A stretch of 63,787 nt of DNA from Candidatus Gastranaerophilales bacterium (GTDB lineage Bacteria > Cyanobacteriota > Vampirovibrionia > Gastranaerophilales > Gastranaerophilaceae): assembly GCA_944323045.1 (NCBI GenBank), contig CALUQX010000016.1, positions 1-63,787 of the forward strand, given 5' to 3'. The notes beneath the pieces are model-generated. The model saw only the letters and a program-made list of their open reading frames with translations. It made no database searches and was not told the DNA's origin. Each line of letters begins with the position of its first letter. Position 1 is the stretch's first letter. A program made the translations under genes and the position numbers. Of this stretch, positions 9,180 through 63,183 are shown piece by piece.

Positions 9180-10037
9180 CTACCATTCTAAATCGTCTCT
9201 GCGCAAATAATCCATGTTACCGTTTGTGACAACCCATGCCGTGCAGCCATAACCGTTATATTGGTTGTTTCCATTTATATTACAGTGTTCAGAAAAACTT
9301 CTGACGGTATTGTCTTTTGTCCCTAGAGGAACTACGGAATTTTGGGTTATATAAAAATAGAACATATCTTTCCCGTAATAATATTTGTCCTTGCCGCTGT
9401 TACTTACGATTATCGCAAAATCGCCGCACACATGTTGTAATTCTCTTGATGAACCTCTGACATTATTACAGTTAGCAGAACTTATAAAACCACCCCATAA
9501 AATAGTGCCGTCGTGTAATCTTATCGCAGTAAATTTTTCTTCAGAAAGATTGCGACCTACTGAACCTCCGTCAAGCGAATACATTTTAGTATCGTCTTTA
9601 AATATGCTGCAATTGTCGTCACCTGCAAGGCATATTTCATCGACCTTCATATAAGGAAGAAGATTAGTCCAAAATTTATTTATGCTGTCATACCCCTCAT
9701 CTGAAATACTGCCATCATCTGGATTAAGTGTAACATTTTGCATGCCCCATGTGTCAAATGTGCCGTGTTCTGCAATAGCCAGATTATAAGCATTCATCAC
9801 TACGCTATAAGCTTTTTTCAGTTTCGTAACCGCTACTCGTTCCTGATATTTCTGTACAAGCGACGGAATTGTCATAGCTGCCACGACGCCGATGATTGCC
9901 AGCGTTATGAGGGTTTCGGCGAGGGTAAACGCGGATTTTTGGGAAGTGATTAAGTGAGTGAAGTGAGTACGGTGAGTACCGTTGTTTCTGGAATGGGTCT
10001 GAGCCATTGCTTCATTGATTTTGTTGTTGGTTCTCAT
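9180..10037 (-). CDS. Prepilin-like protein (type IV pilin/pseudopilin N-terminus)
   Basis: A 285-residue prepilin. A charged leader of about 36 residues ends at SQKSA, then FTLAETLITLAIIGVVAAMT. This gives a prepilin peptidase site with Ala at -1, Phe at +1 and Glu at +5, then a membrane helix. The globular part contains cysteines and ends with a CTAWVVTNGNMDYL-type tail. The leader carries a THR-THF-THL tripeptide repeat, encoded by a 9-bp tandem array. The 5' leader (GAAAGGAGCAACTCCAAATG) is also found before the prepilin at the right edge. Probably a minor pilin or pseudopilin exported and assembled by machinery encoded elsewhere. Confidence 0.85.
   Translation of the reverse strand: MRTNNKINEAMAQTHSRNNGTHRTHFTHLITSQKSAFTLAETLITLAIIGVVAAMTIPSLVQKYQERVAVTKLKKAYSVVMNAYNLAIAEHGTFDTWGMQNVTLNPDDGSISDEGYDSINKFWTNLLPYMKVDEICLAGDDNCSIFKDDTKMYSLDGGSVGRNLSEEKFTAIRLHDGTILWGGFISSANCNNVRGSSRELQHVCGDFAIIVSNSGKDKYYYGKDMFYFYITQNSVVPLGTKDNTVRSFSEHCNINGNNQYNGYGCTAWVVTNGNMDYLRRDDLEW
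9946..9980. repeat. 9-bp tandem array inside a prepilin leader
   Basis: On the plus strand GTGATTAA, GTGAGTGAA, GTGAGTACG and GTGAGTACC follow each other. On the coding (minus) strand they encode the Thr-His-X repeat ahead of the prepilin cleavage site. The same GTGAG-core 9-mers form the terminal repeats of the S23 cassette at 56.9-57.3 kb. Confidence 0.8.
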
Positions 10038-53992: not shown

Positions 53993-54001
53993 ATTAACTA
54001 C

Positions 54002-54033
54002 TTAGTGCCTCAGCGCCCTAGCCTCTTAGTGCC
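54002..54033. repeat. Octamer array A
   Basis: Four 8-mers: TTAGTGCC, TCAGCGCC, CTAGCCTC, TTAGTGCC. On the minus strand the units end TAA, TAG, TGA and TAA, all stop triplets. Confidence 0.8.
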
Positions 54034-54041
54034 TTATATGA

Positions 54042-54066
54042 GTCAATGTGGATATTCTATGTTGAC
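54042..54066. repeat. 25-nt hairpin, copy 1
   Basis: GTCAATGTG...TATGTTGAC folds along its whole length. A second version at 63479-63503 keeps the fold with base-pair changes on both sides. Confidence 0.6.
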
Positions 54067-54081
54067 TGTTGTTGTAACTAC

Positions 54082-54113
54082 TTAGCCCCCTAGCCCCCTA
54101 GTGCCTTAGTGCC
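54082..54113. repeat. Octamer array B
   Basis: Four 8-mers: TTAGCCCC, CTAGCCCC, CTAGTGCC, TTAGTGCC. On the minus strand the units end TAA, TAG, TAG, TAA. Confidence 0.8.
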
Positions 54114-54128
54114 TTTTATCAGAGAACC

Positions 54129-54155
54129 GGTGCGTCGAAACGACAGCACCCTACG
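54129..54155 (-). repeat. REP-like hairpin (CGTAGGGTG type)
   Basis: On the minus strand CGTAGGGTGCTGTCG runs into a stem closing with CGACGCACC. A related CGTAGGGTG hairpin is at 63326. REP-like palindromes with this head occur in many bacteria. Confidence 0.6.
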
Positions 54156-54208
54156 ACTCTTTTGGTACGCATTTTTTTGACCCCTCACCAAGTTATAACA
54201 TTGCCTGT

Positions 54209-54255
54209 ACTTCTTTAGCGGTCACCCAAAGTGTAAAAGCGGACTTGTCCGCCCC
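54209..54255. repeat. ACTTCTTTAGC element, copy 1
   Basis: ACTTCTTTAGC, then CCCAAAGTGTAAAA, then hairpin GCGGAC-TT-GTCCGC and CCC. Copy 2 is at 63549. The hairpin stems differ at two pairs and both changes are compensated. Confidence 0.7.
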
Positions 54256-54300
54256 GCAAGGGTCGAGGAAAAGTGGCGTTGGCTGATTCATGTAACCCGC

Positions 54301-54332
54301 TTAATCACCTAATCACTCAGTCACTTAATCAC
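54301..54332. repeat. Octamer array C
   Basis: Four 8-mers: TTAATCAC, CTAATCAC, TCAGTCAC, TTAATCAC. On the minus strand units read GTGATTAA, GTGACTGA, GTGATTAG, GTGATTAA, each ending in a stop triplet. Confidence 0.8.
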
Positions 54333-54345
54333 TTTTGTAACAACC

Positions 54346-54373
54346 GTTCACTGTTCACGGTTCACCGTTCACA
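54346..54373. repeat. Heptamer array
   Basis: Four 7-mers: GTTCACT, GTTCACG, GTTCACC, GTTCACA. Only the last base varies. Confidence 0.8.
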
Positions 54374-54521
54374 GAACATCCTTTATCCCCCTTTACAAAA
54401 TGTTTTATTTTCTAAAAATATGGGCATATAAAATATTAGGGTCGATAATCTCAAAAGTCATGCTGTGTAAGTGTTTGAGGCATGTTAACTTTTGTAACAA
54501 ATGAGGGTATTTATGAAATTG

Positions 54522-56390: not shown

Positions 56391-56873
56391 ATGAAGCACG
56401 AAATTAACAGGCATGAAATACTTGAAAAGGTAACACCATTAATAGAGAACACGGCGATGCGATTCGGGTTTGTGCCGGTTGAGATCGAGTTTGTAAAGGA
56501 GAATCACCGCTGGTTTTTGCGGATATATCTTTATTCAAGAGAGCGAGACATAACGCTTGATGATTGTGAGAATGTCACAAGAAGTCTGAGTGATTTTCTG
56601 GACGAGCTTATTCCTGTGAAATACTATCTTGAAGTTTCATCACCGGGGCTTGAGCGCAAGTTCAAATCGGAAAAGGAATTTCTTATCTTCAAAGGCAGGC
56701 GGATAAGTGTAAAGTTAAAGCAGCCGTTAGAAGGCGAAGAAGAAAAGATTTTCAAAGGTGAGATACTTGATTATGATACAAACGAAGGCTTGAAACTATT
56801 TAGGTTTGACGACGGGCAGGAGCTCCTCATTCCGCGTAGTAATATTCAGTCTGCTAAGCTGTATATGGATTGA
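56391..56873 (+). CDS. rimP: Ribosome maturation factor RimP
   Basis: A 160-residue factor needed for 30S subunit assembly. VTPLIENTAMRFGFVPVEIE, LRIYLYSRERDITLDDCENV and YYLEVSSPGLERKFKSEKEF are the family's conserved blocks, with an SH3-like C-terminus (GEILDYDTNEGLKLF). AGGAAGG precedes the ATG. It normally abuts nusA; here a small cassette lies between them. Confidence 0.94.
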   Translation: MKHEINRHEILEKVTPLIENTAMRFGFVPVEIEFVKENHRWFLRIYLYSRERDITLDDCENVTRSLSDFLDELIPVKYYLEVSSPGLERKFKSEKEFLIFKGRRISVKLKQPLEGEEEKIFKGEILDYDTNEGLKLFRFDDGQELLIPRSNIQSAKLYMD

Positions 56874-56884
56874 AGGGAATTAAG

Positions 56885-56920
56885 GTGAGTAGAGTGACTA
56901 TAGTGAGTGAGGTGAGTAAT
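56885..56920. repeat. Left terminal repeat of the S23 cassette (four 9-mers)
   Basis: GTGAGTAGA, GTGACTATA, GTGAGTGAG, GTGAGTAAT, preceded by TTAAG. The last unit includes the first two bases of the S23 ATG. The mirror-image set is at 57287-57322. Confidence 0.85.
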
Positions 56921-57278
56921 GTATCATAAAGATTTAGAAATTTACAAAAAATCAATGGATTTTGTTGTTAGTGTTTATGAACTAACAAATAATTTCCCTA
57001 AGGATGAAAATTTTGGGCTTATTAGTCAGTTGAGAAGGGCAGCAATATCAATTCCTTCAAATATTGCTGAAGGATGTGCGCGTGGTTCTGATAAGCAAAT
57101 CTATCATTTTGTAAATATAGCATTAGGTTCCTTAGCAGAAGTTGAAACACAATTAGAAATTTCACAACGATTAGGATATATAAAAGATTTTTCATATATA
57201 GAAAATGATTTTCAAAGTTTAAAATCATTATTATTAGGATTTAGAAAGCATATAATAAAGCGAGTGGACTATGATTAA
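56919..57278 (+). CDS. Four-helix-bundle protein, S23/IVP family
   Basis: A 119-residue protein of the family encoded in intervening sequences of some 23S rRNA genes, also related in fold to the Avd accessory protein of diversity-generating retroelements. FGLISQLRRAAISIPSNIAEG and HFVNIALGSLAEVETQLEIS are diagnostic. Members form rings and bind nucleic acid; their role is poorly known. Here the gene is alone between rimP and nusA, its ATG inside the left terminal repeat and its stop nine bases from the right one. This suggests insertion of a small mobile cassette. Confidence 0.9.
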   Translation: MYHKDLEIYKKSMDFVVSVYELTNNFPKDENFGLISQLRRAAISIPSNIAEGCARGSDKQIYHFVNIALGSLAEVETQLEISQRLGYIKDFSYIENDFQSLKSLLLGFRKHIIKRVDYD

Positions 57279-57286
57279 TTAAATAC

Positions 57287-57322
57287 GTTACTCACTCTAC
57301 TCACTTTACTTACAATACTCAC
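57287..57322. repeat. Right terminal repeat of the S23 cassette (four 9-mers)
   Basis: GTTACTCAC, TCTACTCAC, TTTACTTAC, AATACTCAC, followed by TTAAG. Read on the minus strand these are GTGAGTATT, GTAAGTAAA, GTGAGTAGA, GTGAGTAAC, matching the left end in inverted orientation. Confidence 0.85.
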
Positions 57323-57343
57323 TTAAGTAGAAAGGCAACACAA

Positions 57344-58582
57344 ATGATTAAAATTGGATCAGCATTATTTGAAGCATGTGAAGAACTGGAAAGAGAAAAA
57401 GGGATACCGAAAGAGGTATTGATAAACTCTCTTTGCGACGCAATGGTAACCGCATATAAGAAAAATATGCGCATTAAAGAAGCCGATAATATCGAGTCTA
57501 TTCTCGATGAACAATCCGGCGAAATTGGTGTTTTTAAAACAAAATTGGTAGTAGATTCCGTAGAAAATGAAGATGAAGAAATTTCACTCGCCGAAGCTAA
57601 AGAAATAGTAGAAGATGTAGAAGTCGGCGATGAAGTTAAAATCGAAGTTACTCCAGAACAGTTCGGTCGTATCGCAGCACAAGCCGCTAAACAGGTTATC
57701 ACCCAGAGAATCCGCGAAGCCGAAAAAAATCTTGTAATGCAAGAGTTTCTGGATAAAAAAGGAACACTTACTACCGGTATTATCCAACGCGTAGAAAATA
57801 GAAACGTAATAGTTAATATCGGTAAAATCGACGCTATTATGCCGCAAAAAGAACAAATCCCGGGCGAATACTATAAACCGGGTAATAGAATCAGAGTTTT
57901 CGTACTTAATGTAAAAGAAACAACAAGACTGCCGCAGGTGATAGTTTCCCACGCACACGCAGAAATAGTCAGAGAATTGTTTGAATTGGAAGTCCCGGAA
58001 ATTGAAGACGGTATCGTTGAAATTAAATCAATTTCCCGTGAAGCCGGCTACAGAACAAAAATCGCTGTTTGGTCTAATGACCCTGAAGTTGATTGCGTAG
58101 GGGCTTGTATCGGTCCTCGCGGATCTCGTATCCAGACAATTGTTTCAGAATTAAAAAATGAAAAAATAGATATCGTTAGATACTCTGAAGACCCCGTAGA
58201 ATATATTGTTAATGCACTGTCTCCGGCAAGAGTTGTCTCAGTAGATATCCTCGCTGATGATGAATATTCTCACGAAGCTATGGTTGTCGTTTCTGATGAC
58301 CAGTTGTCTCTGGCTATAGGTCGTGATGGTCAGAATGTACGACTCGCTCATAAATTGACCGGCTGGAAAATAGATATCAAGAGCGTTTCTCAGATGGAAC
58401 GCGCTGAGGCTCAAAATATGCAGAATTACGAAGAAGAACCTCAAGATGATTACGAAGAAGATAGCCAACCTGATGAACTTCAACAGGAAATAGAAGAAGA
58501 AATGAATCAGCAGGCTATTGATGAAGAAGACTTCCCGCAGGAAGAACCCGCTGAAGAAACTTCTGAAGATATAGAAGAATAA
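57344..58582 (+). CDS. nusA: Transcription termination/antitermination factor NusA
   Basis: A 412-residue factor that binds RNA polymerase and nascent RNA. The N-terminal domain is at about 1-125, S1 domain at about 130-200 (GTLTTGIIQRVENRNVIVNI), and two KH domains follow (GACIGPRGSRIQTIVSELKN; DDQLSLAIGRDGQNVRLAHK). It ends in a 40-residue Glu/Asp/Gln tail instead of the acidic repeats of E. coli. AGAAAGG precedes the ATG. It is probably read from the rimP promoter through the S23 cassette. Confidence 0.95.
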   Translation: MIKIGSALFEACEELEREKGIPKEVLINSLCDAMVTAYKKNMRIKEADNIESILDEQSGEIGVFKTKLVVDSVENEDEEISLAEAKEIVEDVEVGDEVKIEVTPEQFGRIAAQAAKQVITQRIREAEKNLVMQEFLDKKGTLTTGIIQRVENRNVIVNIGKIDAIMPQKEQIPGEYYKPGNRIRVFVLNVKETTRLPQVIVSHAHAEIVRELFELEVPEIEDGIVEIKSISREAGYRTKIAVWSNDPEVDCVGACIGPRGSRIQTIVSELKNEKIDIVRYSEDPVEYIVNALSPARVVSVDILADDEYSHEAMVVVSDDQLSLAIGRDGQNVRLAHKLTGWKIDIKSVSQMERAEAQNMQNYEEEPQDDYEEDSQPDELQQEIEEEMNQQAIDEEDFPQEEPAEETSEDIEE

Positions 58583-58633: not shown

Positions 58634-58693
58634 ATTATGTAACGAATTGTAAAGATGAATTTAAAATAGGCTGAAATCCAGATATACTGCCTC

Positions 58694-58728
58694 ATAGGAT
58701 AGGATAGGATAGGATAGGATAGGATAGG
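58694..58728. repeat. Perfect pentamer array (ATAGG x7)
   Basis: Seven exact ATAGG copies followed by GCGGGGCGAGG. Arrays this regular can change length by slipped replication. It lies about 115 bases before the gene at 58842, where a length change could alter promoter spacing. The rest of 58634-58841 shows nothing else clear. Confidence 0.9.
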
Positions 58729-58841
58729 GCGGGGCGAGGGCAACTATTGTATAAAAAGCGTTTTAATAAAAGAGTAAGGGAAAATTAATTTTCACAAGTA
58801 GAACTAAAATTCACACTCAAAAAAGGAAAGGAAAAAGTATT

Positions 58842-61761: not shown

Positions 61762-62907
61762 ATGAAACCAAATTCAACAAAGCTTATTAATCACGTAGAC
61801 ACAAAGCCTAAAAAATGTAAAGGACTTAACGTCCTAACGTCTTATCGTCTTAACGTCTTTAAACACAAACCCGCCTTTACTCTCGCAGAAGTCTTAATCA
61901 CCCTCGCGATAATCGGCGTAGTAGCAGTGCTGACATTACCTGCATTAATCCAGAACTATAACGAAAAGGCATGGGGCACAGCACAAGATGTATTCACCAA
62001 CCGCCTTGAGGTGGCAACAAGACAAATGAATACAGAGGAAAAATTGGCTGGCTATTCAAATACAATGGACTTTGTAAACGAATTGAAGAAATACATAAAA
62101 ATAACAAGAGTATGTGACAATAGCAACATTACAAAATGTTTTAATAAAGAAGTTATTTGGAACGAGGGCGAAGACCCGATAGACATGTCCACAATCAAGA
62201 ATGCGGCATCCCTCGGACAAGACGATTGGGATACGGATACAGTAGCCGTTCAGTTTGCAAATGGTGTGAACGCAATAATTGCATACAATCCAAACACAAC
62301 ACAGGAACCGTTTAATAACCAGTTCAGCGCAACCTCAAACAGTATGGCAATTCTATATGACGTATCCGGAAACAAAAATCCGAATACAAACGGCAAGGAT
62401 ATAAATAATATTAATGTAAGACAATTGGCAGGTACAACAGGCTGTATGATACCGGAATTAGCAGATACGATGTGCATAAGTGAAATATTAGCCCATGGAA
62501 CAGGGTATAGTCCTATGACCTTAGATGAATGTAATCAAGCAGTATCAGAGGGAACCCTGGGAATAAAGCAATGCTACTACAGTAGTGACTATTGGGCAGG
62601 CGCAGTAAAAGCATGCGGAGGAACAAGTAAAATGCCAACAGCTGAACAGCTAGCTCAGCTAGCGACATATGTATACAATTACGACGGAACAATAGGAGCG
62701 GAACAGGATGTTTCAGGACTAGCAATGGACACAACCAAAGCGAGCCAATTCCTCTCAGCCTCACCGTATTCAAACTACTTCTATGTTTGGTCGGGGGAGG
62801 ATTATGGTCACTACGCGTACTTCCGCTACTTTAAATCTACCGACACGGGCTGGTTCTTCTTCACCCGCCACAGCCGCAACCTACTAGCGGTTTGTATTGG
62901 AGAATAA
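61762..62907 (+). CDS. Long prepilin with variable C-terminal domain (paralog 2)
   Basis: A 381-residue prepilin. The leader is about 37 residues (KGLNVLTSYRLNVFKHKPA), much longer than that of paralog 1 (five residues), then FTLAEVLITLAIIGVVAVLT. Residues after the helix match paralog 1 closely over about 160 positions (TAQDVFT.RLEVATRQMNTE, WNEGEDPIDMSTIKNAASLG). The end differs: YFYVWSGEDYGHYAYFRYFK, then LLAVCIGE. The conserved scaffold KACGG, MPT..QLA.LA.Y.Y.YDG, ASQF, WS and LAVC fits a C-lectin-like display fold. Probably an adhesive pilin variant. Confidence 0.83.
   Translation: MKPNSTKLINHVDTKPKKCKGLNVLTSYRLNVFKHKPAFTLAEVLITLAIIGVVAVLTLPALIQNYNEKAWGTAQDVFTNRLEVATRQMNTEEKLAGYSNTMDFVNELKKYIKITRVCDNSNITKCFNKEVIWNEGEDPIDMSTIKNAASLGQDDWDTDTVAVQFANGVNAIIAYNPNTTQEPFNNQFSATSNSMAILYDVSGNKNPNTNGKDINNINVRQLAGTTGCMIPELADTMCISEILAHGTGYSPMTLDECNQAVSEGTLGIKQCYYSSDYWAGAVKACGGTSKMPTAEQLAQLATYVYNYDGTIGAEQDVSGLAMDTTKASQFLSASPYSNYFYVWSGEDYGHYAYFRYFKSTDTGWFFFTRHSRNLLAVCIGE
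61826..61857. repeat. Octamer array inside the prepilin leader
   Basis: Four 8-mers: TTAACGTC, CTAACGTC, TTATCGTC, TTAACGTC. The plus strand is coding; the stop triplets lie on the minus strand. It explains the extra leader length of paralog 2. Confidence 0.8.
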
Positions 62908-62949
62908 TGCACTAATAGACTGCGGCTCGCGTTAAACGGCAACGCTCAC

Positions 62950-62988
62950 AACAACAACGAAAACTCAACGTTTCCGTTGATTGTTGTT
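62950..62988. repeat. Nested hairpin after prepilin paralog 2
   Basis: AACAACAA at 62950-62957 pairs with TTGTTGTT at 62981-62988, and CAACG-TTTC-CGTTG is nested inside at 62966-62979. It sits in a 135-base block absent after paralog 1. Confidence 0.6.
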
Positions 62989-63042
62989 CGTCTCTCGCTG
63001 CGCTCGTGCCTCTGCTCGCCTTGCGGTGTGCTTAGGTGATTC

Positions 63043-63071
63043 CAATTAAGAGGACTTTGTCCTCTTAATTG
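63043..63071. repeat. Hairpin followed by GAAGGCACTA, copy 2
   Basis: CAATTAAGAGGAC pairs perfectly with GTCCTCTTAATTG across TTT. GAAGGCACTAA follows as after paralog 1. Confidence 0.75.
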
Positions 63072-63093
63072 AAGGCACTAAGGGATTAATAAA

Positions 63094-63125
63094 GACGATA
63101 AGACGATAAGACGTTAGGACGATAA
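63094..63125. repeat. Octamer array D
   Basis: Four 8-mers on the plus strand: GACGATAA, GACGATAA, GACGTTAG, GACGATAA. Each ends in a stop triplet. GGCACTAA and GGGATTAA lie just upstream. Confidence 0.8.
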
Positions 63126-63183
63126 GTTCGTTAATAAAAATAGGGCAATTAGGGAAATTCCACATTGCCTTATTTGTTTTCAT

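Follow-up and report, generated by a model that had tools for sequence, protein, structure and literature searches.

The DNA analysed here (the window) is a contig of 63,787 nt, G000:C16, from the draft genome of about 2 Mb of a Candidatus Gastranaerophilales bacterium (G000). Between its rimP and nusA genes lies a cassette in which a gene for a four-helix-bundle protein of the S23/IVP family is enclosed by two inverted arms of short tandem repeats. An earlier note on this DNA had placed an S23/IVP gene between rimP and nusA, and matches to PF05635, TIGR02436 and the RimP and NusA models confirm this. The locus is made up as follows.

56391..56873, + strand: rimP, the upstream neighbour, with its stop codon 11 nt ahead of the left arm (PF02576, PF17384, NCBIfam RimP models)
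56885..56920, + strand: left arm, four tandem 9-mers GTGAGTAGA GTGACTATA GTGAGTGAG GTGAGTAAT (sequence, inverted-repeat search, tandem scan)
56919..57278, + strand: S23/IVP four-helix-bundle gene, 119 aa (PF05635, TIGR02436; 2gsc at 1e-23, 2rld at 1e-5)
57287..57322, − strand: right arm, the inverted counterpart of the left; its four 9-mers read GTGAGTATT GTAAGTAAA GTGAGTAGA GTGAGTAAC on the minus strand (sequence, inverted-repeat search, tandem scan)
57344..58582, + strand: nusA, the downstream neighbour; its AGAAAGG ribosome-binding site is not part of the cassette (TIGR01953, 420 bits)

The protein belongs to the family by a wide margin, scoring 128.1 bits against PF05635 (curated cut-off 33.8) and 124.9 bits against TIGR02436 (cut-off 24), and the structure of a homologue, 2gsc, has been solved. 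Each end had been described as four 9-mers with a GTGAG core; four 9-mers are indeed present at each end, but the core is exact in only three of the four units of each arm. The best ungapped inverted pair of the arms covers 40 nt at 78%, and the inverted score of the cassette was matched once per 3000 first-order Markov null sequences. The last unit of the left arm is overlapped by the S23 ATG, and a Shine-Dalgarno-like AGGTG lies within the same arm. When the RNA is folded, the two arms pair and form an outer stem around the S23 open reading frame (ORF) (z -4.0). The second S23 gene of G000 lies between groES and groEL and has GTGAYTNAG-type arms, unlike the rimP–nusA unit. The right arm of that groES–groEL cassette is interrupted by an unrelated, palindrome-rich insert of about 115 nt (L002 1857-1972).

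Turnover and fidelity at operon junctions

The gap between rimP and nusA could be read in 30 genomes of the family. It is short and free of S23 in 24 of them, namely one of the five congeners of G000 (G005, with a gap of 36 nt) and 23 other family members, so that the earlier note's mark of an old operon member, occupation in all relatives with unrelated flanks, is not seen. The other four congeners are occupied by three S23 lineages with three repeat units. G001 has GTGAG arms and an S23 that is 82% identical to that of the window, G002 and G003 have AAGGGAAT arms and an S23 of 52-53% identity, and in G004, which has GGCACTAA arms, S23 is just 49% identical, yet rimP is 97% identical. GTGAG arms recur in G028, of another genus, with an S23 of 67% identity. 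In the gap of G016 (L042), where relatives have S23 cassettes, heptamer arrays (GTGAAAT ... CTCACTT) form a hairpin without S23.

Grouped by downstream gene, the S23 loci fall mainly at rimP–nusA (22), groES–groEL (15), rfb-type (8) and cysE-type (6) junctions, the last two named from a reading of the translations, and at others. On the S23 tree, which is built from 118 columns and has many unresolved forks, 5 changes of site stand against 35 changes of host genus, while shuffling the sites gave a mean of about 39 for all groups. Comparison of these sequences shows that S23 lineages keep largely to their own junction across host genera and are missing from most hosts, and that other lineages with other arm units take their place at a given junction.

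Closer pairs of loci show the same turnover. Two groES–groEL copies in different genera (L073/L075) have S23 DNA that is 92.5% identical between flanks of 84-85% identity. Three same-genus pairs (L091/L092, L104/L106 and L081/L118) display the reverse, with flanks 91-98% and S23 only 68-70% identical; for L091/L092 the values are 93-98% and 70%. Among 28 readable groES–groEL loci of a single genus, 12 are occupied (at least five arm units) and 16 have gaps of less than 150 nt. One such gap, of 64 nt (L232), looks like both arms of L250 minus the gene.

S23 runs in the same direction as both neighbours at 55 of 65 loci, compared with 579 of 1267 ordinary genes (46%). The sequences place the element at operon junctions, mostly co-directional, just after the upstream stop codon and ahead of the downstream gene's ribosome-binding site. 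In L092 and L076 the stop codon of groES apparently falls within the left arm, in its first GTGA unit; there the insertion would therefore have reached the final codon of this essential gene.

Matched but variable arms

S23 matches were found in 91 of 288 family genomes, 66 of them exceeding the curated cut-off. Where flanks were read (71 loci), nearly all have inverted arrays of 7-10 nt units. The unit varies among elements (GTGAATA, GACGATAAG, GGCGATAAG, AAGATGCAAAG, GTTGAAAGG, GTCAGGAGG, GCTAAGCAG and others), and comparison of the terminal repeats found no ends that are conserved from element to element. The two arms of one locus nevertheless match, with a median own-arm score of 46 at 67 family loci versus 17 for cross pairs (Mann-Whitney U test, 1.5e-36). 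An arm score of 34 is attained by 82% of family S23 loci, as against 0.35% of 573 other short family genes.

The same holds further afield. From a sample of 80 S23 loci of many phyla, 77 were scored, with a median own-arm match of 34 versus 18 for cross pairs (1.5e-37), and at 39 of the 77 the inverted arms exceed the 99th percentile of cross pairs. Chance repetition as the origin of the arms is ruled out by the own-versus-cross scores, the short-gene comparison and the loci from other phyla. The Dokdonella (Xanthomonadales) element has its right arm within the end of the S23 coding sequence, and the junction reads as accB–accC. On cyanobacterial plasmids S23 genes with array flanks are found inside cas operons (L312, L314: between cas6 and cas4; between cas10 and a cmr3-type gene). 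Such genes may explain the S23 genes reported earlier in cas loci (PMC3936711).

Nine pairs of S23 genes gave dN/dS values of 0.03-0.21. This purifying selection indicates that either the element or the host depends in some way on the protein. Arm similarity also climbs with S23 identity (Spearman 0.40, from non-independent pairs); the comparison was limited to loci at different sites in different genera, since same-site pairs take in host flanks.

Dispersed arrays and the proposed element

The repeat units also occur away from S23 genes. Pattern searches of the six congeneric genomes gave the following numbers of matches, the reversed-pattern control being uninformative for GGGAATAA, which is near-identical when read backwards.

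GTGAGTNNN: G000 115, G001 108, G002 0, G003 1, G004 12, G005 0
GGCACTAN: G000 41, G001 74, G002 1, G003 6, G004 28, G005 0
GGGAATAA: G000 12, G001 1, G002 96, G003 188, G004 6, G005 0
GTGAYTNA: G000 121, G001 146, G002 13, G003 71, G004 17, G005 0

The median is 108 matches for units borne by an S23 gene of the genome and 6 for the others (p 0.0007), and G005, which is free of S23, has none for any of the four units. Further copies of the 9-mer ends, for which the earlier note had suggested a search, exist as more than 100 array matches in G000, but a single S23 gene bears them. Dokdonella has 354 matches of its S23-arm unit GGGATTC, many as same-polarity inverted pairs, and nine other S23 genomes gave 19, 2 and seven times zero matches. 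In G121 the dispersed arrays show the units of its S23 arms in the same order. Samples of 100 kb from 16 genomes contained 0-1 low-complexity arrays in four genomes free of S23, and several arrays with S23-type units in most of those with S23.

The earlier note had proposed a mobile unit with S23 as either passenger or active part, and comparison of genomes, rather than movement seen directly, supports it. We consider it quite probable that the cassette represents a small mobile element which occupies operon junctions and resembles the S23-coding intervening sequences (IVS) of 23S rRNA. S23 would act on its own arms, and the arrays without S23 would be non-autonomous derivatives; these two parts are what we infer within that reading. 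It consists of a single S23/IVP gene and two inverted arms that enclose it, with about four imperfect tandem repeats of 7-9 nt in each. Arm sequence differs from element to element, while the arms of one element agree with each other and usually with a repeat dispersed in the same genome. In the operon transcript the arms would base-pair, and the resulting stem around the S23 ORF could make the insert tolerable. RNase III may cut the insert out of the transcript, as it does the S23-coding IVS of 23S rRNA; such excision from operon mRNA seems likely because the stem design is the same as in the Coxiella IVS. S23, a distant relative of Avd, the accessory protein of diversity-generating retroelements (DGR), might bind its own arms and be needed for copying or insertion. 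The arrays without S23 would be related to it as REPINs are to RAYTs. Between passenger and active part we lean to the latter, because S23 is kept under purifying selection and arrays are lacking from those genomes without S23 that were examined.

Several observations weigh against this reading. Patchy presence combined with site fidelity could in part reflect vertical descent with many losses, and clear transfer is confined to a few pairs. The best pairs of empty and occupied sites revealed no insertion event, target duplication or exact junction, the gaps being too diverged; with one genome sampled per species, duplication and junction are unreadable. Among the 77 loci from other phyla, 12 (mostly of Bacteroidota) match in direct orientation only, and about one third have neither inverted nor direct matched arms under the strict test. 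The co-occurrence of unit counts with S23 draws on few, related genomes, G018 and G011 bear S23 yet have no arrays within the 100 kb sampled, and G000 and G001 are rich in GGCACTAA arrays with no S23 gene of that unit detected. Most hosts have one or two S23 genes, and the coding element itself is therefore not multiplying. In several Bacteroidota (L144, L145, L166, L179, L186, L193 and others) the arrays flanking S23 run in the same direction.

The arrays themselves could be the mobile or self-templated part, moved by host or trans-acting machinery, with S23 a mere passenger caught between two of them. Such a view would suit the S23-less majority of arrays in G000 and Dokdonella, including the GGCACTAA arrays of G000 just mentioned, and the prepilin genes of G000 and G121, in which arrays likewise lie both within the leader and either past the stop codon or upstream. 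We think it unlikely, given that matched arms go with S23 in many phyla and are so rare around ordinary short genes, that arrays are absent from the S23-free genomes examined, that S23 identity co-varies with arm similarity across sites, and that selection preserves the protein. Still less probable is a domesticated host regulator that binds the stem of its own arms and tunes expression of rimP–nusA or groES–groEL. The long RNA stem, the co-directional operon position and the purifying selection would all be expected of one, but most relatives lack S23 at the same junction, unrelated S23 lineages and arm units supplant one another there, and S23 also occurs in rfb-type, cysE-type, accB–accC and cas operons, which share no function.

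A retroelement served in trans by a reverse transcriptase, S23 playing the part of Avd, would accord with the distant relationship of the two proteins and with the mostly co-directional insertion into transcribed junctions. No RVT_1 match was found in G000 and G001, the congeners richest in GTGAG arrays, although G002-G004 have one or two; this absence is not absolute, because the drafts are about 97% complete, and we regard a retroelement as very improbable. Hardly credible at all is an old operon member that was inherited vertically and lost many times. S23 lineage does track the site, but the same-genus loci with near-identical flanks around dissimilar S23 genes, and the reverse pattern of L073/L075, contradict it; operon membership by descent was rejected on the empty sites and the turnover. 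Reverse transcriptase was likewise rejected as the driver, RVT_1 not following the arrays, and so was RAYT, as Y1_Tnp is missing from G001 (108 GTGAG matches) and present three times in G005, which has no arrays. A reading as phage cargo was also rejected, with no S23 match among 50,697 phage records.

Known systems and further arrays of the window

The preferred reading, a mobile S23 element with matched arms, has its closest counterpart in the S23-coding IVS of Coxiella and Leptospira, which are sporadic and considered horizontally acquired (PMC4990558). The Coxiella IVS is 428 nt long, has tandem heptamers GACAGAT ahead of the S23 start codon, and is known to be excised by RNase III (PMC4990558). 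The window cassette shares the protein family, a similar size (about 440 nt) and complementary ends that pair into a stem around the S23 ORF. It differs in lying at a protein-coding junction rather than in a 23S or 16S rRNA gene, in that RNase III excision, established for the IVS, is a prediction for the cassette, and in its matched arrays and their tie to genome-wide repeats, which are not described for the IVS (PMC4990558).

With REPIN/RAYT systems (PMC3116915) the S23 elements share short repeats scattered through the genome as inverted pairs, and a single protein gene that does not multiply and has the matching repeat on its flanks. Here, however, the protein is S23 instead of a Y1/HUH transposase, the arms are tandem arrays where those of REPINs are single palindromes, and the S23 gene itself switches hosts at fixed sites. 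The GGGNATC arrays of Xanthomonas and Nostoc consist of 7-nt units, usually four, between aligned ORFs, and X. campestris has 70 inverted convergent pairs of them (PMC4692102). X. campestris is also the source of the solved S23 protein 2gsc, and the S23 arms of Nostoc and Dokdonella are of the same sort as these and the cyanobacterial short tandemly repeated repetitive (STRR) sequences. That study discusses G-quadruplexes without mention of S23 (PMC4692102), whereas the 9-mer arms of the window are without G-tracts.

Avd is related to S23 distantly in sequence and fold, the NCBIfam DivGenRetAVD model giving E 9e-6 and 25.9 bits, far under its cut-off of 80 bits, and G000 has no RVT_1 match to suggest a DGR. 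Homing introns and inteins resemble the S23 elements in site fidelity across hosts and in having empty alleles; here S23 is the only ORF, profile searches matched no endonuclease domain, and the ends are not conserved. A classical DNA transposon or miniature inverted-repeat element would have a conserved terminal inverted repeat and a target-site duplication, while the ends of S23 elements vary from one to another and any duplication is unreadable at species distance. We know of no transposition scheme that fits elements with freely varying but mutually matching ends.

None of the three components (IVS, S23 genes, dispersed heptamers) is new by itself. What is new, within the partial coverage of our literature search, which found no paper linking S23 genes to tandem-array ends, is the connection among them, the matched but variable arms and the site-keeping in mRNA operons. 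The S23 genes with matched inverted ends in many phyla look like a widespread, largely unrecognised kind of mobile element, and there is a fair chance that they form a new class. More tentatively, and with somewhat more doubt than conviction, S23/IVP might be the core of a pan-bacterial class whose ends are set by matched inverted tandem arrays and not by a fixed sequence. The protein would then recognise its own arm unit, send copies to particular operon junctions without reverse transcriptase or known transposase, and spawn the puzzling dispersed 7-9 nt repeats (STRR, GGGNATC and others) found in many genomes. If true, this would assign a function to a large family labelled merely "four helix bundle protein" or "S23 ribosomal protein" and a reason why S23 genes appear within cas, groE and nusA operons. 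It would also unite rRNA intervening sequences, free-standing S23 genes and dispersed short tandem repeats as one testable system.

Elsewhere in the window there are further arrays.

9947..9988, + strand: S23-less array of the GTGAGTNNN unit (tandem scan, pattern search)
54000..54381, no strand assigned: three further kinds of unit (GGCACTAA type, GTGAYTNA type, GTGAACG/C type) in S23-less arrays that are crowded into the intergenic region following a prepilin gene (tandem scan, sequence, pattern searches)
61816..61865, − strand: array of GACGTTAAG/GACGATAAG units in the leader-coding part of a prepilin gene (ORF 61762-62907; tandem scan)
63085..63131, + strand: array of the GACGATAAG unit beyond the same gene, inverted to the array at 61816..61865 (tandem scan)

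Prepilin-type genes (window 61762-63131; L063 685-1915; L343 13590-14040) have arrays both in the leader-coding part and past the stop codon, inverted to each other and with a polarity opposite to that of S23 cassettes. The cleaved prepilin leader may be a tolerant landing place for arrays. After nusA lies a pentanucleotide array (GGATA)n at 58683-58740, unlike the S23-type arrays, and a similar (GGTAT)n is present in G129.
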